A DNA stretch of 64,000 bases from Butyrivibrio sp. CB08 (GTDB lineage: Bacteria; Bacillota; Clostridia; Lachnospirales; Lachnospiraceae). The notes under the pieces are model-generated. The model was not told the DNA's origin. It made no database searches and saw only the letters and a list, made by a program, of their open reading frames with translations. Where the stretch lies: the NCBI RefSeq assembly GCF_003625485.1, contig NZ_RAIR01000001.1, positions 1 through 64,000 on the forward strand. The letters are read 5' to 3'. How positions within the stretch are numbered: position 1 is the first letter of the stretch; the number at the start of each line of letters is the position of its first letter. Positions 1-10,308 of the stretch are shown here, one piece after another. The position numbers and the translations under genes were made by a program.

Positions 1-404
1 TGCAACAGTGTGGAGTGATATATGCTAAGGCGTTTCCTATAGAATATTGGGGGATTGATTGGAACCCTGATAATGCAAAAGAATATTTATTGGATTATTA
101 CGAGCAGAAAAGATTTGTGGGATATGTGTATGAAGAAGATGACGTGGTAATTGGATGTATATTTGCATTAAGTAAGATATCAGGAAGTAAAAAAGAAATA
201 TATATTTACGAAATGGCAGTTTTACCTGAAAGACAGGGCCAAGGTATTGGCAGGCAATTACTGAAGACGCTATTAGATTATAGTAAGGAATCAGGATATG
301 CTGGAGTTGTCCTTTATACCAGTGAATATGCACCGGCTTCCAAATTCTATGAAAATAATGGTTTTAAACTGTCACAAGGAACTATCTGTATGTATTATGC
401 GTAA
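1..404 (+). CDS. GNAT family N-acetyltransferase, 5' end outside window
   Basis: C-terminal 133 or so residues of a small GNAT acetyltransferase, which would move an acetyl group from acetyl-CoA to an unknown amine. The acetyl-CoA loop RQGQGIGR is present, followed by the usual C-terminal FYENNGFK motif. The reading frame is open from position 3, and comparison with the complete copy at 20750-21181 shows that only about ten N-terminal residues are missing. The two copies are about 97% identical in DNA over 400 bases and diverge within a few bases of the stop codon. Substrate unknown. Confidence 0.9.
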   Translation, partial: QQCGVIYAKAFPIEYWGIDWNPDNAKEYLLDYYEQKRFVGYVYEEDDVVIGCIFALSKISGSKKEIYIYEMAVLPERQGQGIGRQLLKTLLDYSKESGYAGVVLYTSEYAPASKFYENNGFKLSQGTICMYYA

Positions 405-420
405 GTACCAGTTTGTCTAG
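405..420 (+). repeat. Cassette-junction element, copy 1 (degenerate)
   Basis: Directly after the GNAT stop codon stands GTACCAGTTTGTCTAG, which keeps the right half (CAGTTTGTC) of the element found at 13 other gene ends in this window. The left ACAAATT arm is lost. Confidence 0.5.
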
Positions 421-450
421 GGGGAGTTTTTGTGATTCAAGTTGCCACCA

Positions 451-489
451 GTTGTGTACAGTAGTCCTGAGCTTTCTACCGTACACAAC
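451..489. repeat. Inverted repeat (9 bp plus 4 bp stem)
   Basis: GTTGTGTAC (451-459) pairs with GTACACAAC (481-489); after one mismatched pair, GTAG (461-464) pairs with CTAC (476-479), leaving an 11-base loop. There is no T-run after it, so it is not a standard terminator. Confidence 0.7.
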
Positions 490-502
490 AGGTAAACAGC
501 AA
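485..502 (+). repeat. 18-base repeat, copy 1
   Basis: ACAACAGGTAAACAGCAA is identical to 6394-6411. Both copies lie after a gene and before an intrinsic terminator, and here it overlaps the right arm of the 451-489 inverted repeat. Confidence 0.6.
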
Positions 503-588
503 CTAGATGAAGAAATGCCTCAAATACGGCATTTTCACTTTATTAATCGTTCTCAAAGAGATGATCAATCTGCTATTGCAGATTTCAG

Positions 589-618
589 AAGACTCGGTAC
601 ATTGTACCGAGTCTTTTT
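589..618 (+). terminator. Intrinsic terminator
   Basis: Perfect 12-bp stem AAGACTCGGTAC / GTACCGAGTCTT with a 3-base loop, running into five T. It would end transcripts from the GNAT gene at the left edge. Confidence 0.85.
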
Positions 619-891
619 GTGTGCTAAAAGTGGACTAGGGACAGGGGTTCTAGCTCATTTTGGAATGTACAAAGGCTTGAATATTGGAGAGTATAGAGGA
701 AATACTTATACTATAAATTATTGATTATAGCGTAAGGCTTATATATGCAAATCGGAGTTTATGGAGATGTGAGTCGGCTTTCAGGCCAAAGGTATCGGTT
801 TTCAGGAACCGGCGCGTTTTTAGGAAAAGAAGGTTCATTCGAGTGTCTTCGTGTGAAGTCGGGTATGAAGCTGATTTTTTGCAAAAAGGTA

Positions 892-920
892 TTGACAGTA
901 AACATTTTACACTATATACT
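892..920 (+). promoter_or_regulatory. Sigma-A promoter of the MarR/SirTM operon with candidate operator
   Basis: TTGACA at 892-897 and TATACT at 915-920 with a 17-bp spacer, a near-consensus housekeeping promoter. The spacer holds the small palindrome GTAAA-CAT-TTTAC (898-910), well placed for a repressor to block RNA polymerase. That MarR itself binds there is an inference. Confidence 0.8.
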
Positions 921-955
921 ATTAGCCATAGCAGCAATGGATAGGAGAAAGGCAA

Positions 956-1417
956 ATGGCAATAATAAAAATACCGATAGACGAATCTCTTCCGGCCTAT
1001 GTCAATGAGTCCATAGTGACGCTTGAGGAACTTGTGCGAAGCGACCATTTCAGTGCGTTTGAGAAACTGGCAAGGCTTTCCAAGGGCGAAATACTGGTGC
1101 TTAAGATCCTCCTCCTTCAAGGGGGCATGGCAACACCGACCGAGATCAGTGAGGCTATGAACAGTACCAAAGGCCGTGTATCCGCCGTCCTGAATGCGTT
1201 GGAAAAAAAAGGTGAGGTTACACGAGAGATCGATAAGGACAATCGCAGAAATATTATCGTGACACTCACAGATTCCGGAAGAGAGCATGTCATGAATGAG
1301 CTTCAGTCAGGTTACAGAACCATGACACATATCTTTGAAGAACTGGGGGAACAGGATTCCGGGGAGTTCATCAGGATGCTGACGAGAGTATTTAAGCTGA
1401 TGAATGAAGCAGACTAA
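956..1417 (+). CDS. MarR family transcriptional regulator
   Basis: 153-residue winged-helix regulator. The helix-turn-helix runs over about residues 50-95 (TPTEISEAMNSTKGRVSAVL), followed by the wing (KKGEVTREIDKDNRRNIIV) and a C-terminal dimerisation helix. Start ATG follows the binding site AGGAGAA. It is the first gene after a near-consensus promoter that contains a palindrome, and it heads the run SDR, nitroreductase, SirTM, macrodomain. MarR proteins usually sense oxidants, phenolics or drugs and repress their own operon, which fits the redox enzymes downstream. Confidence 0.88.
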   Translation: MAIIKIPIDESLPAYVNESIVTLEELVRSDHFSAFEKLARLSKGEILVLKILLLQGGMATPTEISEAMNSTKGRVSAVLNALEKKGEVTREIDKDNRRNIIVTLTDSGREHVMNELQSGYRTMTHIFEELGEQDSGEFIRMLTRVFKLMNEAD

Positions 1418-1421
1418 ACCA

Positions 1422-1445
1422 TTGCAGGCAGTGACTTGCCTGCAA
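1422..1445. promoter_or_regulatory. Inverted repeat between MarR and SDR genes
   Basis: TTGCAGGC (1422-1429) pairs with GCCTGCAA (1438-1445). It is followed by A residues, not T, so it is not a terminator for the plus strand; it may be an operator or an mRNA processing/stability stem. Confidence 0.5.
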
Positions 1446-1502
1446 AAAAATGAAATAAAGTATACACTGTAAAAAATTAACAATGAAAAAGGAGAAAACA
1501 AG

Positions 1503-2438
1503 ATGGAAAAGAGAACAGTGATCGTAACAGGCGGCAACTCAGGACTTGGTTACCAGTGTGCAAAAAATATAGCAATGAAGGACAAGGATTATACGCTGGT
1601 GCTTGCCTGCAGGAACCCGGAGAAAGCGGCTAAGGCGATACAGGATATGAAGACTGAAACAGGAAACGAAAATATCTATTCCGTGGCACTTGACCTTGCG
1701 TCGCTGGATTCGGTACGCACTTTTAAGGAGCTTTACAAAAAGGAAAACTTTCCGCCGCTTTATTCCATCGTGTGCAATGCTGGACTCAATCGCACTCCGC
1801 TGGAATATACAAAAGATGGATTTGAGATGACCTTTGGGGTATGCCATTTAGGACATTTCCTTCTTGTGAATGAGATGCTTGATATGGTGGCTGAAGACGG
1901 CAGGATTGTTTTTGTGGCCAGCGATATGCACAGGCCTCCGATCATGATGTCGCTTACGGCACCAGCATTTACTGATGCATACAAGCTGGCATATCTTGGG
2001 AAAAATGAGAAGCCGTCCGGCAAGGATATGAATCTCAGATATTCCATGGCAAAGCTGTCCAATATCCTTTGTGTCTATGAAATGGCTGACAGACTGAATG
2101 CTGCCGGAAAGAAGATCACGGTCAACGCCTTCAATCCGGGGCTTATGGCGGATACGAATTTCATGCCGACGGGCAGCAAGGTAAAGAAAGCCCTGATTAG
2201 TGCGGGATCAACAATGGTGGCCAAGCTTACGAACCGCTACGGGAGTGGACTGACTTCCGGGAAGGAGCTTGCGAAAATGATAACAGAAGAGAGTTTTGCA
2301 GGTGTAACCGGGAAGTATAATGACCGGGGTACGATCACGAAAACTTCGGAACCAAGTTATGATAAGAAGGCTGCGAAAAAACTGTGGGAACAGAGCGCGG
2401 AGCTACTGAAGATGAATCAGGACGAAATGATCCTGTAG
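1503..2438 (+). CDS. Short-chain dehydrogenase/reductase (protochlorophyllide reductase-like)
   Basis: 311-residue SDR oxidoreductase. The N-terminal nucleotide-binding motif is TGGNSGLG (residues 9-16), the structural motif CNAG is near residue 91, and the catalytic YSMAK is near residue 180. Length and the TGGNSGLG/YSMAK pair match the light-dependent protochlorophyllide reductase-like branch (retinol dehydrogenase-like), here surely not in chlorophyll synthesis. It probably reduces a small carbonyl with NADPH. AAGGAG precedes the ATG. Second gene of the MarR operon. Confidence 0.85.
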   Translation: MEKRTVIVTGGNSGLGYQCAKNIAMKDKDYTLVLACRNPEKAAKAIQDMKTETGNENIYSVALDLASLDSVRTFKELYKKENFPPLYSIVCNAGLNRTPLEYTKDGFEMTFGVCHLGHFLLVNEMLDMVAEDGRIVFVASDMHRPPIMMSLTAPAFTDAYKLAYLGKNEKPSGKDMNLRYSMAKLSNILCVYEMADRLNAAGKKITVNAFNPGLMADTNFMPTGSKVKKALISAGSTMVAKLTNRYGSGLTSGKELAKMITEESFAGVTGKYNDRGTITKTSEPSYDKKAAKKLWEQSAELLKMNQDEMIL

Positions 2439-2454
2439 ACGGGAGGCACTTATT

Positions 2455-3108
2455 ATGGATATGAAAGAGGCAATGAAAGCCAGACATATGGTTCGAAAAT
2501 ATACAGGCAGAACGATTCCTGCAGATATTGTAGATAGGCTGAACAAACGTGTCAGAATCAATAATGAGCAGCATGGCTTGTCCATCAGGCTTATGATAAA
2601 CGATAAAACTGCGGTTCCGGGCGTAATCAGGTTGATCCTTGCAAAAGGAGTGAATAACTTTTTTATCATGGCGGGTCCTGATGGCGCGGATGAACTGTGC
2701 GGTTACTGCGGTGCTGATCTGATGCTTTATGCACAGACGCTTGGTTTGAATACATGGTGGGTAGGCGGTACCTATAACCGGAAAGGAGCACAGGAGAAAT
2801 CCGAAGGTGCAAAGCCCGTAGGAATCATCGCTGTCGGCTACGGTCAGACGCAGGGTGTTCCTCATAAGACAAAGACGGCAGAACAGGTCAGTTCATACGA
2901 TGGAGAAGCACCACAGTGGTTTAAGGACGGCATTGAAGCAGCACTCTTAGCGCCTACCGCACTGGCAAAGCAGGCATTCACCATCAGAGGTAAAGGAAAT
3001 AAGGTTTCAATTTCCTGTGATAACGGCATCTTTACCGGTGTGGATACAGGTCTTGTGAAATATCACTTTGAACTGGGAGCCGGAAAAGATAACTTCGAGT
3101 GGGAGTAG
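2455..3108 (+). CDS. Nitroreductase family protein
   Basis: 217-residue flavin-dependent reductase of the TM1586-like nitroreductase group. The N-terminus EAMKARHMVRKYTGRTIP is the family's substrate/FMN entry motif (usual form RRSVRxF), and GADLMLYAQTLGLNTWWVGG (residues 84-104) is the conserved FMN-contacting helix and turn. It would reduce nitro compounds or quinones with NAD(P)H. It starts 16 bases after the SDR stop behind GGGAGG, and ends 5 bases before the sirtuin, so the genes are co-transcribed. Confidence 0.85.
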   Translation: MDMKEAMKARHMVRKYTGRTIPADIVDRLNKRVRINNEQHGLSIRLMINDKTAVPGVIRLILAKGVNNFFIMAGPDGADELCGYCGADLMLYAQTLGLNTWWVGGTYNRKGAQEKSEGAKPVGIIAVGYGQTQGVPHKTKTAEQVSSYDGEAPQWFKDGIEAALLAPTALAKQAFTIRGKGNKVSISCDNGIFTGVDTGLVKYHFELGAGKDNFEWE

Positions 3109-3113
3109 CAAAT

Positions 3114-3815
3114 ATGGATCAGCAGGTACAAACACTTCAAAGATTGATTGATGAAAGTAATTTCACACTGGTAATTACGGGCGCAGGGATATCTGTTGCC
3201 GCCGGCATTCCGAGCATGCATGGACTCAATCTGGCAGAGACTCTGCAATTTGCTTCCAATACCGTGCTGAAGGCAACGCCGGAGCATTATTACAGAGTCG
3301 CCAGGCATTCTTTTCTCGACGCCATGTTTCAAAATGGTCCGAGTCTCTCGCATAAGAAACTGGCTGAATTGGAACAGAAGGGAAAGATCCAGGGGATCAT
3401 AACGACCAATCTCGATCATCTTCACAGTCTTGCCGGCTCGAAAAATGTGGCTGAGATTCAGGGAAGCTTTGCCGTGAATACCTGTCTTAAATGTGGAAAG
3501 CGAAACTACGATGTGAATATCTGGAATAAAGGGAAAGCACCAAGATGTGAGTGCGGAGGATTATATTCCTGCTGGCCTGTTTATGCGCATGTGGGGCTCT
3601 ATAATGAGGATGTGCTAAAAGCTCAGGAATGGGCGCGAAAGGCTGAACTCGTCATTATTGTAGGCGCTATCGGGAACTATGGAAGCGTATATTGGAATCA
3701 CATAAAACCGTCTGCAAAGATCGTACAGATCAATCCGAAACAGACAGGGTTTGATTCTTCGGCCTTTCTGAATATCCACAGTACCTGCGATGAGGTTTTT
3801 GCCGGGTTGTCATAG
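3114..3815 (+). CDS. SirTM-like (class M) sirtuin, probable protein ADP-ribosyltransferase
   Basis: 233-residue Sir2-fold NAD+ enzyme. GAGISVAAGIP (23-33) is the NAD-binding motif, TTNLD (97-101) matches the family's TQNID, and two Cys pairs (124/127 and 145/147) form the zinc ribbon. The catalytic His of deacylase sirtuins is Gln here (EIQGS, Q116), which is the signature of class M sirtuins that ADP-ribosylate proteins instead of deacylating them. Start ATG chosen for the GGGAG nine bases upstream. It is followed 12 bases later by a macrodomain hydrolase, the usual SirTM partner, but the lipoylated GcvH-like carrier and lipoate ligase of known SirTM operons are absent; SDR and nitroreductase take their place. 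Confidence 0.85.
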   Translation: MDQQVQTLQRLIDESNFTLVITGAGISVAAGIPSMHGLNLAETLQFASNTVLKATPEHYYRVARHSFLDAMFQNGPSLSHKKLAELEQKGKIQGIITTNLDHLHSLAGSKNVAEIQGSFAVNTCLKCGKRNYDVNIWNKGKAPRCECGGLYSCWPVYAHVGLYNEDVLKAQEWARKAELVIIVGAIGNYGSVYWNHIKPSAKIVQINPKQTGFDSSAFLNIHSTCDEVFAGLS

Positions 3816-3827
3816 GAGGATGCATTG

Positions 3828-4331
3828 ATGATACGGTGTATTAAGGGTGATATAACAAAAGTTCATGGTGTGGATGCCATTGTCAATGCCGCGAATCGCA
3901 CCCTGCTCGGAGGAGGCGGAGTGGATGGTGCGATCCACAGTGCTGCAGGACCGGGACTTCGGGCTGAATGCTTTAAATTGCATGGCTGTAAAACGGGAGA
4001 GGCAAAGATCACAAAGGCATATAATCTCCCGTGCAGGTATGTGATTCACACAGTCGGTCCGGTATGGCATGGCGGAAAAAAGAATGAGGATAAGCTGTTG
4101 GAATTGTGTTATCGAAACTCGCTGCAGGTTGCCAAAGAACAGGGGATACGCAGCATAGCATTCCCCTCCATTTCTACAGGTGTGTTTCATTATCCGGTTG
4201 AGCAGGCTGCGAAGATTGCAGTTAAGACCGTTCAGAAATATATGGATGAGAATCCGGATGCATTTGATTTGGTGATGTGGGTGCTGTTTGATGACGACAC
4301 ATATGGAATATATTCTGAAATGATTCAATGA
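3828..4331 (+). CDS. Macrodomain ADP-ribosyl/O-acetyl-ADP-ribose hydrolase (MacroD/YmdB type)
   Basis: 167-residue macrodomain that binds ADP-ribose and removes it from proteins or deacetylates O-acetyl-ADP-ribose. The characteristic motifs are [25 protein letters not shown] (the ADP-ribose loop) and [11 protein letters not shown] (the phosphate loop). Length fits E. coli YmdB (about 177). I see no Cys/His cluster like the zinc site of many SirTM-linked macrodomains. AGGAGG overlaps the sirtuin stop codon, and ATG at 3828 is preferred over TTG at 3825. It probably reverses the modification set by the upstream sirtuin. Confidence 0.92.
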
Positions 4332-4368
4332 GAGATTGCCTGCAGGTTTATTTTTTATCTCTTTTGTT

Positions 4369-4601
4369 GCCCAAAGGGCAGGCGGTAAGAAGCTGTATGT
4401 AAAAGTGGTCACAAGAGAGGAATTTGAAACAGCGTCGCTGAAGATGAGATTTCACTGCTAGGCAGGATGCCGGGCACAAACTATCAGGATTATGCGCTTG
4501 CAGGGAACAACGGAGAAGAGGCTCTGTCTCCGGAAGAGCTGGAAAAGGTTCTTGGACGTGAAATCACGCCGCTGGCGGATGCGTTGAAGGAATTGATATA
4601 G
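4369..4601 (+). pseudogene. Frameshifted gene remnant, family not recognised
   Basis: Coding-like sequence in two frames. Positions 4369-4439 read AQRAGGKKLYVKVVTREEFE and a few more residues; from about 4440 the coding signal moves to another frame (DEISLLGRMPGTNYQDYALA and on to LADALKELI) and ends in TAG at 4599. No start codon or ribosome binding site is left. It lies directly after the macrodomain gene, so the operon may once have had another member. I do not recognise the family. Confidence 0.55.
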
Positions 4602-4688
4602 GAGCATCTGCATTGATGGGGATATAGACGACGAGCTTACGAAAATATAATTAAAGAATGAATGAAGGATATACCGGAAGTTAATCGC

Positions 4689-4704
4689 ACAAATTCAAAT
4701 TTGT
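4689..4704 (+). repeat. Cassette-junction element, copy 2 (perfect palindrome)
   Basis: ACAAAT-TCAA-ATTTGT: 6-bp perfect arms around a 4-base loop, followed by CTGTATGAAGG. One of the clearest copies. It is not next to an intact stop codon but lies downstream of a decayed gene. Confidence 0.75.
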
Positions 4705-4790
4705 CTGTATGAAGGCATAGCCTTTTATCTCGGAATATATATCGGAAGATAGAGGATGCAATGAGACAGTTTCTAAACAATTTATAAACA

Positions 4791-4822
4791 TTGAAAAATT
4801 TAGAAAATCTTTTAACTATAAT
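4791..4822 (+). promoter_or_regulatory. Possible promoter of the beta-helix lipoprotein
   Basis: TTGAAA (4791-4796) and TATAAT (4817-4822) lie in a very AT-rich stretch, but the 20-bp spacer is longer than the usual 17, so the -35 assignment is weak; the -10 box is consensus. Confidence 0.45.
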
Positions 4823-4904
4823 TTAGGTTTCTTATTCATAATCCATTCCAACAACAAACACATTTTCCCTGATAAATGTTCAGGAATTACAAAGGAGTCT
4901 AATT

Positions 4905-6389
4905 ATGAAAAGAAACGAGTTAAAAAAGATCTTATCTTTAGCAATAGTAACAATCATGTGCGTAGCTGTCACAGCATGCGGACAGACAGCCACATCAACC
5001 GAAGGAACTGACACTGTAGTTACACAGGAAAGTACAGTTGAAGAAAGCAGCAACCCTTCTGATGCACCTGAAAAGCCAGACGGCGAGGCGCCTGATGGAG
5101 CGCCTGGTGATAAACCAGATGGAGAAGCACCTGGAAATCCTCCCGAAGGTGGCGGCGGTTTTGGAGGTGGAAGCAGCAGTGCTGATATCGATTATCAGGG
5201 AGCGATAGAAGTAACTGGCTCAGATACTCAGGATGGGAAGACCTATGCCAGCACAACAGCAGATGAGAGCGCACTTCTGATCAGCACAAGCGACGACGTA
5301 ACCATCACCAATGCAACTGTTACCAAGACCGGCGATTCAGATGGTGGAGACAACTGTAACTTCTATGGCCTTAATGCAGCTGTCCTTGTAAAAGACGGAT
5401 CTACAACCACTATTACCGGAGCAAACATCACTTCTGATGCTGACGGAGCCAATGGCGTATTCTCATATGGTGGAAATGGCGGAAAGAATGGCGCTGAGGG
5501 TGATGGTACAACAGTCATAATTTCAGACAGTACTATCACAACAACAGGTGATGGCTCAGGTGGCATCATGACAACCGGTGGCGGTGTGACAAAGGCATCA
5601 AACCTTACAGTTGAGACTAGCGGAAGATCTTCAGCAGCCATCAGAACTGACAGGGGTGGCGGCACAGTTACTGTAGATGGTGGAACATATACAACAAACG
5701 GTCTTGGCTCTCCTGCTATCTATTCAACTGCAGACATCACAGTTTCTAATGCAACTCTTGTTTCCAACCTTTCAGAGGGAGTCTGCATTGAGGGTGTTAA
5801 TTCAATTACCCTTAATGACTGCGATATGACCGCAAATAATACTGATACCAACGGAAATGCAACATTCTATGACACAATCATGATCTACCAGTCCATGTCA
5901 GGAGATGCAGACAGTGGTACATCGGTATTTACAATGAATGGTGGAACACTTACCAGCAAGAATGGCCATGTTTTTCACGTAACAAATACAACTGCTGTTA
6001 TTAACCTGGATAATGTAAAGATTGTTAATAAGGATTCAGAGAATATCCTGCTTTCAGTATGTGCTGATGGCTGGAATGGTGACACAAACACAGCTACACT
6101 TAATGCAACTAACCAGACCCTTGAGGGAACGATCCTTGTTGGAAGTGATTCACAGCTTACACTTAACCTTACTGATGGATCCAGCTTCACAGGCACAATA
6201 GGCGGAAACATCACTAATGCCAAGGGCGAAACAGTTTCAACAGAAGTAGGAACAGTAGCTGTTTCTATAGATAAGAGCAGCACCTGGACACTTACAGCAG
6301 ATACCTATATCTCATCATTTGATGGAGATACTTCCAGTGTAGATACTAATGGATATACACTTTACGTTAATGGAGTTGCCCTGAACTAA
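4905..6389 (+). CDS. Secreted lipoprotein with parallel beta-helix (carbohydrate-binding/adhesin-like)
   Basis: 494 residues. N-terminal lipoprotein signal peptide ending in the lipobox VTAC (Cys about residue 25), then an acidic, Pro/Gly-rich linker with repeated PDGEAP/PGDKPDG units (about residues 50-85) and a Gly run, then a long domain of short Ser/Thr/Asn/Gly-rich strands (for example TITGANITSDADGANGVFSY) typical of right-handed parallel beta-helix surface proteins annotated as carbohydrate-binding (DUF4353-like). It is probably anchored in the outer leaflet of the membrane and reaches through the wall by the linker. The ligand is unknown. A terminator follows. Confidence 0.8.
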   Translation: MKRNELKKILSLAIVTIMCVAVTACGQTATSTEGTDTVVTQESTVEESSNPSDAPEKPDGEAPDGAPGDKPDGEAPGNPPEGGGGFGGGSSSADIDYQGAIEVTGSDTQDGKTYASTTADESALLISTSDDVTITNATVTKTGDSDGGDNCNFYGLNAAVLVKDGSTTTITGANITSDADGANGVFSYGGNGGKNGAEGDGTTVIISDSTITTTGDGSGGIMTTGGGVTKASNLTVETSGRSSAAIRTDRGGGTVTVDGGTYTTNGLGSPAIYSTADITVSNATLVSNLSEGVCIEGVNSITLNDCDMTANNTDTNGNATFYDTIMIYQSMSGDADSGTSVFTMNGGTLTSKNGHVFHVTNTTAVINLDNVKIVNKDSENILLSVCADGWNGDTNTATLNATNQTLEGTILVGSDSQLTLNLTDGSSFTGTIGGNITNAKGETVSTEVGTVAVSIDKSSTWTLTADTYISSFDGDTSSVDTNGYTLYVNGVALN

Positions 6390-9546: not shown

Positions 9547-10308
9547 ATGAGTGAACAGAAATATGCAAGTTGGAATCCTTGGCACGGCTGTACGAAATAC
9601 TCGGAAGGATGCCGTTTCTGTTATGTTTATCGGCAGGATGAAGCGTACGGCAGTTCGTTTTCGTCGGAACAATGCCGCAAAACACAAAACTTTAATCTGC
9701 CGATAAAAAAGAAGCGGGACGGAACGTCGAAGATCGAGCCTGGTTCTATCATTATGACTTGCTTTACGTCGGATTTTTTACTGAAAGATGCAGATGAATG
9801 GCGTGCTGAATGCTGGGAAATGATAAAGCGTCGCAACGATTGTATGTTTTACTTTTTCACGAAACGCATTGAACGCTTTTCGGAATGTGTGCCGTTTGAC
9901 TGGGGAGACGGCTATGATAATGTCATAGTAGGTTGCACTTGTGAAAATCAGGATCGGGCGGATTATAGGCTGCCAATATTTGCGGATTTGCCTATCAAGC
10001 ACAAAACGGTTATCCTCGGTCCCATGCTTGGTCCTGTCAATCTTGAAAAGTATCTTGACGGCAGTATCTGCGAGGTGGCCTGCTCAGGCGAGTCGGGCAT
10101 AAACGTGCGGCCGCTCGACTATGAATGGGTGCTGGATGTTCGTCGCCAGTGTATGAATAAAGGCGTCCCATTTCAGTTTCATCAAACGGGAGCCTATTTT
10201 ATCAAAAACGGCAGAATGTACCATATACCCCGTCGTTTTCAAATATCGCAGGCTCGAAAAGCGGGGATTGATTATAAAATTGTGGATGGATTTATACCGG
10301 ATTATTAG
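9547..10308 (+). CDS. DUF5131 (phage Gp37/Gp68) family protein, radical-SAM-like
   Basis: 253 residues. The N-terminal SWNPWHGCTKYSEGCRFCY holds a Cys-x6-Cys-x2-Cys cluster of the kind that binds an iron-sulfur centre, and the middle has the strand motifs PGSIIMTCFTSDFL and VIVGCTCENQDRADYR of this family's TIM-barrel-like fold. The biochemical role is unknown; relatives occur in phages and bacterial accessory regions. It starts 12 bases after the HEAT-repeat gene behind GAGGG and may be co-transcribed with it. Confidence 0.82.
   Translation: MSEQKYASWNPWHGCTKYSEGCRFCYVYRQDEAYGSSFSSEQCRKTQNFNLPIKKKRDGTSKIEPGSIIMTCFTSDFLLKDADEWRAECWEMIKRRNDCMFYFFTKRIERFSECVPFDWGDGYDNVIVGCTCENQDRADYRLPIFADLPIKHKTVILGPMLGPVNLEKYLDGSICEVACSGESGINVRPLDYEWVLDVRRQCMNKGVPFQFHQTGAYFIKNGRMYHIPRRFQISQARKAGIDYKIVDGFIPDY

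Follow-up and report, generated by a model that had tools for sequence, protein, structure and literature searches.

The first 64,000 nucleotides of contig NZ_RAIR01000001.1 of Butyrivibrio sp. CB08 (the 64-kb window) encode a sirtuin in which glutamine replaces the catalytic histidine, located in a single operon (956-4331) with a MarR-family regulator, two oxidoreductases and a macrodomain. With slightly better than even confidence, we propose that this is a MarR-controlled flavin/NAD(P)H redox stress operon containing a reversible mono-ADP-ribosylation switch, in which the Gln-type sirtuin would be the writer and an interchangeable hydrolase the eraser. The five genes are co-directional, and those for the short-chain dehydrogenase/reductase (SDR), the nitroreductase, the sirtuin and the macrodomain are spaced by 5 to 16 bases. 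An earlier interpretation made from the DNA letters (the sequence-only reading) had placed these genes here and named MarR, SDR and nitroreductase as partners, and Pfam matches bear this out. Positions are those of the window on the forward strand, and sirtuin residues are numbered from the ATG at 3114. G000 denotes the genome holding the window, L and G labels denote compared loci and genomes, and C denotes a contig.

956 to 1417, forward strand: MarR-family regulator, 153 amino acids (PF01047, 38 bits)
1503 to 2438, forward strand: SDR, 311 amino acids (PF00106, 71.6 bits)
2455 to 3108, forward strand: TM1586-type nitroreductase, 217 amino acids (PF14512, 203 bits)
3114 to 3815, forward strand: Gln-type sirtuin, 233 amino acids, with T98, N99, D101 and Q116 (PF02146, 80.5 bits)
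3828 to 4331, forward strand: classical MacroD-type macrodomain, 167 amino acids (PF01661, 165 bits; NF001664, 221 bits)

In the proposed switch, electrophile, quinone or similar stress would cause MarR to release the operon, and the operon reductases would deal with the stressor. The sirtuin, fed by NAD+, would attach ADP-ribose to a flavoenzyme or a partner instead of deacylating, and the MacroD macrodomain would remove the ADP-ribose and reset the target. The eraser would be interchangeable: MacroD here, microbial PARG elsewhere and absent in some genomes. The proposal is built on the gene content of the locus, Gln116, the loss of deacylase motifs, the counts of partners and the spread of the cassette; the transferase activity, its reversal, the regulation by MarR and the target are predicted from these sequence features.

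The substitution of Gln116 for the catalytic His, on which the sequence-only reading had been founded, is confirmed in the window sirtuin. In an alignment of 43 sirtuins, residue 116 is Gln in all 12 rows of the Gln family and all 8 rows of class M (SirTM), and His in the remaining 23. Three further Gln-family members (two at L120 and one at L122) have Gln too, and an earlier set of 57 sirtuin open reading frames (ORFs) contained 51 with His and six with Gln, all six from the Gln family. As judged from these rows, Gln116 is no chance slip. The dN/dS ratio of the sirtuin gene is 0.14 against L063 and 0.07 against L119, the latter at a dS of 2.3, near saturation. The Asn of TTNLD had also been taken as a mark of class M; it is present in all 43 aligned sirtuins and marks no class. 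The unusual position in this motif is Thr98, which is Thr in 9 of the 12 Gln-family rows and in 8/8 class M rows, and Gln in 23/23 His-type rows. The roles of GAGxS, DFR, N99, D101 and the acyl-lysine peptide loop are known from the sirtuin literature. In the aligned Gln family, GAGxS, N99 and D101 are retained, the DFR motif after GAGxS is lost, and so is the acyl-peptide loop (columns 153-160), where the family differs from 16 class U rows. In SpySirTM and SauSirTM, Gln goes with transferase activity and no deacylase activity was detected (PMC4518038).

Because His is replaced by Gln and the acyl-peptide loop is lost, deacylation by the window sirtuin is unlikely. The alternative of an ordinary NAD-dependent deacylase, with the MacroD protein clearing its O-acetyl-ADP-ribose product, would fit the class U scaffold described below and a macrodomain that scores above the cut-off for an O-acetyl-ADP-ribose deacetylase model. 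We nevertheless give this explanation only a slight chance, given that every member examined has Gln for His, that both the DFR motif and the acyl-peptide loop are gone, that another sirtuin, of the His type, is encoded at G000:C1, and that a macrodomain or PARG neighbour occurs in 0 of 51 sampled His-type loci. An AlphaFold2 model built from 7 rows has a mean predicted local distance difference test score of 59.8 and is low near the active site. In the tandem Gln sirtuin pairs at L060, L062, L120 and L121, one copy carries TQN or AQN with FQG, and the other carries TTN with IQG.

To which sirtuin class does the Gln family belong? The sequence-only reading had assigned the window sirtuin to class M; in our comparison, it is by sequence a member of a rare Gln-type family on a class U (CobB-like) scaffold, outside class M. 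We take class U to be the name for TmSir2 and the clostridial CobB-like sirtuins. The best PDB match of the window sirtuin is 1yc5, Thermotoga maritima Sir2 (E 8e-25). In hhalign profile comparisons, the Gln family scores 347 with class U, 310 with other His-type sirtuins and 83 with class M, and class U scores 62 with class M; the mean identity of the family is 32%, 26% and 20% to these three groups, respectively. The class M rows are SirTMs at loci found via the Zn-Macro family NF003163; 24 of 30 such loci held a recognisable SirTM, and six were dropped when the motif filter detected none. The His-type loci number 51, being the 55 sirtuin loci L003-L057 minus four of the Gln family (L032-L035).

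The residues that distinguish class M support this placement. In SpySirTM, Arg192 contacts the Gln, lies 55 residues after Gln137 and is needed for transfer (PMC4518038). The class M Arg in L073 likewise sits 55 residues past its Gln, matching Q137/R192. The Arg192 column holds Arg in 8/8 class M rows and S, C, L, M, A or G in 12/12 Gln-family rows; in the 23 His-type rows it holds Lys or Arg, so a basic residue there is not specific to class M. The GVGx[NT]TP motif is also missing: the window sirtuin reads GAIGNYG, and the Pro column is G, Y or S in 12/12 Gln-family rows. A first tree of 56 rows (16 of the 24 class M and 30 of the 51 His-type rows) puts class M, the Gln family and class U each on one side of a branch, an arrangement that by itself cannot settle kinship. 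When seven more distant His-type sirtuins are included (with 8 of the 24 class M and 16 of the 51 His-type rows), the Gln family stands beside class U with a support of 95/79, just under the star of the tool, and the best tree leans towards class U. Forcing class M and the Gln family together is only 2.87 log units worse and is not rejected (approximately unbiased test, p 0.349), so that the Gln may have a single origin.

A true class M SirTM whose operon lost the lipoyl carrier genes and swapped Zn-Macro for MacroD is, in our judgement, distinctly unlikely. The QG and TTN shared by class M and the Gln family, the small cost of the joint tree and the family's higher score with class M than class U has (83 vs 62) speak for it. 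The profile score (83 vs 347 with class U), the identity (20% vs 32%), the missing Arg192, GVGx[NT]TP and zinc loop, and the position beside class U in the best tree speak against it. Rather unlikely, too, is a second, independently arisen transferase lineage, in which His would have changed to Gln again on a class U scaffold; it would act on the flavin nitroreductase or a partner and tie NAD+ to flavoenzyme activity, with MacroD and PARG exchanged and the set spread as a cassette and as phage cargo.

The macrodomain had been read as a further sign of class M, whose partner is Zn-Macro; the neighbour found here is a classical MacroD. It carries NAAN and the GGGxDGxIH catalytic loop of the MacroD type, and scores 221 bits with NF001664 (cut-off 200), the O-acetyl-ADP-ribose deacetylase model, and 176 bits with NF003163 (cut-off 272), the Zn-Macro model. 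Zn-Macros are themselves of MacroD type, and their defining features were taken from PMC11490716. The window macrodomain has neither the Cx(4)HxC zinc loop, which is present in 12/12 aligned Zn-Macros, nor the N-terminal extension, and a Zn-Macro identity was rejected on these grounds and on the sub-cut-off NF003163 score. Its identity is 44-50% to the aligned Zn-Macros and 58.5% to the other MacroD protein of the genome. At E 1e-60, 70 of 391 genomes of the class have an NF003163 match, and G000 is not among them. Elsewhere in G000 (C20, 42.0-44.4 kb; L158 4000-6389), a TM1586-type nitroreductase gene lies about 1.2 kb before another MacroD gene, with no sirtuin. At the place that corresponds to window 4331-4620, L063, L064 and L059 have an intact ORF of 91 amino acids without a Pfam match, and none is listed in the window.

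A second hydrolase family accompanies the Gln sirtuins at other loci. At L062, L120 and L121, two side-by-side Gln sirtuins adjoin a microbial PARG protein (PF10021); at L061, the PARG is accompanied by a single full-length Gln sirtuin and a fragment of a sirtuin. PF10021 was found in 4 of the 7 Gln-family genomes searched, and in each of these four at least one copy adjoins a Gln sirtuin.

Partners within 1.5 kb were counted at 19 Gln-family loci, with flanks shorter than this at contig ends counted as they stood and L070, which is on the same contig as L059, excluded. A nitroreductase is near in 12 of the 19, an ADP-ribosyl hydrolase in 12 and either one in 16. The three without either are L060, where the contig ends beside the sirtuin pair, L069, where the sirtuin is cut short and the nitroreductase lies slightly beyond 1.5 kb, and L123. 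In the same test, the 51 sampled His-type loci gave 0 for every partner; of the 24 class M loci, all 24 have a macrodomain, as their selection ensured, and two have a nitroreductase. In the reverse direction, 30 PF14512 loci (those extracted as loci, a subset of the listed matches) gave a sirtuin in none and a macrodomain in one; PF14512 is common, being present in 62 of 196 genomes. The window's SDR is replaced by an aldo/keto reductase in L065-L069 and by flavodoxin in L124. In these homologous clusters, which the sequence-only reading had proposed to collect, nitroreductase and hydrolase recur and neither is constant. The 19 loci comprise the following distinct groups: the window type with L065-L069; L119; L058; L123; L124; L061; L122; and the tandem loci L060, L062, L120 and L121.

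Several other genes were seen around these and related loci. Similar ABC transporter genes (PF00005 and PF00664) lie near the Gln sirtuin at L062 (7317-9053), L122 (3972-5759) and L123 (4243-6084), and each of these three genomes has a second such gene, as judged by eye. The nitroreductase and the cut-short sirtuin at L069 (6548-9046) are separated by an alpha/beta hydrolase gene. A DUF5131 protein (PF07505, 130 bits) is encoded at window 9547-10308, 5 kb past the operon, and on a Monoglobus plasmid (L101 3001-4460) an HG sirtuin is directly followed by a DUF5131 gene.

What protein would the Gln-type sirtuin modify? The operon contains no GcvH-L or LplA gene, as the sequence-only reading had observed. 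A search of the rest of the genome for GcvH (PF01597) gave one match below the cut-off (G000:C2:52175), which was rejected as a biotin carrier with the motif ESMKMEIP. The LplA C-terminal domain (PF10437) was found nowhere in the genome, was positive in 7 of 14 control genomes, and ligases without that domain were not sought. From these two results, the protein that SirTMs usually modify is probably missing, and the target is probably not lipoylated GcvH-L. The sequence-only reading had suggested the SDR, the nitroreductase or a carrier elsewhere in the genome instead. The comparison favours the nitroreductase as the best-placed candidate because an aldo/keto reductase or flavodoxin takes the place of the SDR at related loci while a nitroreductase is near in 12/19; leaving the eraser aside, no other non-regulatory neighbour is as constant.

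A number of observations weigh against the switch that we propose. Arg192, which class M needs for transfer, is without a counterpart in the Gln family. G372 (98% complete) and G637 (97%) have the sirtuin, together with MarR and the nitroreductase, and no macrodomain or microbial PARG was found in either genome. Because MacroD or PARG varies by locus and these two genomes have neither, the eraser would be exchangeable and not obligatory. MacroD1 and YmdB failed to reverse the SirTM mark on GcvH-L (PMC4518038). The blastp partner queries were drawn partly from the Gln family's own loci, which favours finding partners there, and many of the 19 loci are near-copies (the window, L059, L063 and L064; L065-L069). 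A counter-example exists outside the 51 sampled controls: at G238:C32 (L160, 32000-38000), a nitroreductase gene (PF14512) lies 1.1 kb downstream of a His-type sirtuin, with other ORFs between. Finally, the nitroreductase is not near L061, L062, L068 and L121 and therefore cannot be the sole target; another or an additional target is possible.

The Gln family is rare and mobile. With a single-sequence query, 391 sampled genomes of the class gave G000 itself and G372, G413, G334 and G310; a profile of 11 rows found the family in 6 of 397 genomes of the taxonomic family and 1 of 398 of the phylum, each count including G000. Whole-genome matches fall into the close Gln relatives on one side and, on the other, a large number of further sirtuins, most of them at 29-39% identity. 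The named carriers are metagenome-assembled genomes (MAGs) from goat, sheep and deer gut and one phage contig. In blastn comparisons, the operon lies in a segment that is shared between unrelated surroundings.

748 to 4712, forward strand: cassette shared between unrelated flanks, which diverge outside it

G413:C6, from another taxonomic family and the contig of L059 and L070, matches at 98.4% over 748-3133 and at 96.9% over 3464-4712, and the gap is a deletion of about 330 bases within its sirtuin gene. As far as their contigs reach, L063, from a Solobacterium MAG, matches at 95.2% over 1740-4696, and L064, from a Butyrivibrio MAG, at 97.1% over 2886-4679. Single transfer cases may be binning errors because the contigs are 3 to 13 kb long and come from MAGs. 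L119, a contig from IMG/VR and the one contig that the viral scans found twice, carries MarR, nitroreductase (63% identical to that of the window) and sirtuin (78%) amid phage tail genes, in the order tape-measure gene and small neighbour, MarR/nitroreductase/sirtuin, tail protein, holin and endolysin; its MarR was not detected by blastp with the window MarR. At L058, an integrase is encoded at a distance of 6 kb. No flanking repeats or inverted ends of at least 14 bases that frame the cassette were found in 600-5000, and all 77 and 40 matching records of the plasmid and named-phage collections, respectively, are below 60% identity.

Mobility is among the evidence for two other explanations. 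The sirtuin could serve a mobile conflict module as its toxin or as an NAD+ hydrolase, and the macrodomain or PARG would then be the antidote or a clean-up enzyme, as the movement of the cassette between taxonomic families, the related set on a phage contig and the sirtuin-Macro toxin-antitoxin pair proposed for actinobacterial phages (PMC9503650) might suggest. We assign this a clearly low probability, given that in the window MarR and the two oxidoreductases precede the sirtuin within the same operon and that no hydrolase lies beside the sirtuin in G372, G637 or the phage locus, nor was one found anywhere in the former two. In addition, the PADLOC SIR2 matches are partial (best E 1.8e-08 over residues 2-47), and no PADLOC SIR2 model covers most of the window sirtuin, which argues against one of the known anti-phage SIR2 systems. 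The operon could instead detoxify a compound that the sirtuin itself ADP-ribosylates, much as Arr ADP-ribosylates rifampicin. MarR, nitroreductase, SDR or aldo/keto reductase and flavodoxin are typical of a xenobiotic response, and the mobility of the cassette agrees with such a role. However, a linked eraser would undo the inactivation and we know of no small-molecule transferase among sirtuins, making this explanation very unlikely.

The sequences in front of the operon and behind its first gene are compatible with MarR control, short of proof.

892 to 920, forward strand: promoter TTGACA-17-TATACT (11 of 12 consensus bases)
898 to 910, forward strand: palindrome GTAAACATTTTAC (GTAAA-CAT-TTTAC) within the spacer of the promoter, probably the MarR operator O1
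1422 to 1445, forward strand: hairpin TTGCAGGC/GCCTGCAA in the MarR-SDR gap
1460 to 1473, forward strand: second operator-like site O2 (GTATACACTGTAAA), GTTTAC/GTAAA-like, upstream of the structural genes, putative role

The near-consensus promoter with a palindrome that the sequence-only reading had described stands, with the palindrome inside the spacer. Because the promoter scan as a whole gave 8 sites against 8.4 expected, the promoter rests on its recurrence, with small changes, at the equivalent place in six related loci (L065-L070). Across these loci, the palindrome is more or less kept (its counterpart in L065 is GTAAACGGTTTAC), and an O2-like site recurs ahead of the second gene, weaker in L066. 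The hairpin is kept in 7/7 loci compared, with a variable loop, and is no ordinary terminator because A rather than a run of T follows. An Rfam search of window 400-4900 gave no match.

Among the titles listed in searches of the open-access PMC literature, none concerns a sirtuin with Gln that lies outside class M or a sirtuin-microbial PARG pair, and no paper contains both 'SirTM' and 'nitroreductase'. With a second Gln lineage on a different scaffold, it becomes possible to ask what residues turn a sirtuin into a transferase and whether any lipoyl carrier is required. That two hydrolase families replace each other as the eraser hints that ADP-ribose is really attached to something, and the carriers, gut MAGs and one phage contig, would extend the role of ADP-ribosylation by sirtuins past the pathogens in which it has been studied.

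According to PMC4518038 (Rack 2015) and PMC11490716 (Ariza 2024), class M SirTMs pair with Zn-Macro, and extended operons add GcvH-L and LplA2. The window operon resembles these operons in Gln for His, TTN and an adjacent ADP-ribosyl hydrolase, and flavin oxidoreductases are nearby in both (old yellow enzyme and luciferase-like monooxygenase at the SirTM loci described, nitroreductase here). It differs in the class U scaffold without Arg192 or GVGx[NT]TP, in a sirtuin of 233 amino acids vs about 280-320 in the class M rows, in MacroD or PARG rather than Zn-Macro, in the MarR gene in front and in that no lipoyl carrier or ligase was found. The class U sirtuins (TmSir2 and the clostridial CobB-like proteins) are closest in sequence, but the Gln family departs from them in Gln for His, in the lost DFR motif and acyl-peptide loop and in its operon partners. 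The macrodomain shares NAAN and the GGGGVDGxIH loop, with its Asp and His, with MacroD1/2-like proteins and YmdB and, unlike them, is linked to a Gln sirtuin. The actinobacterial phage pairs of PMC9503650 also place a phage-borne sirtuin beside a Macro protein; those pairs are described as two-gene toxin-antitoxin systems, likened here by description and not by sequence.

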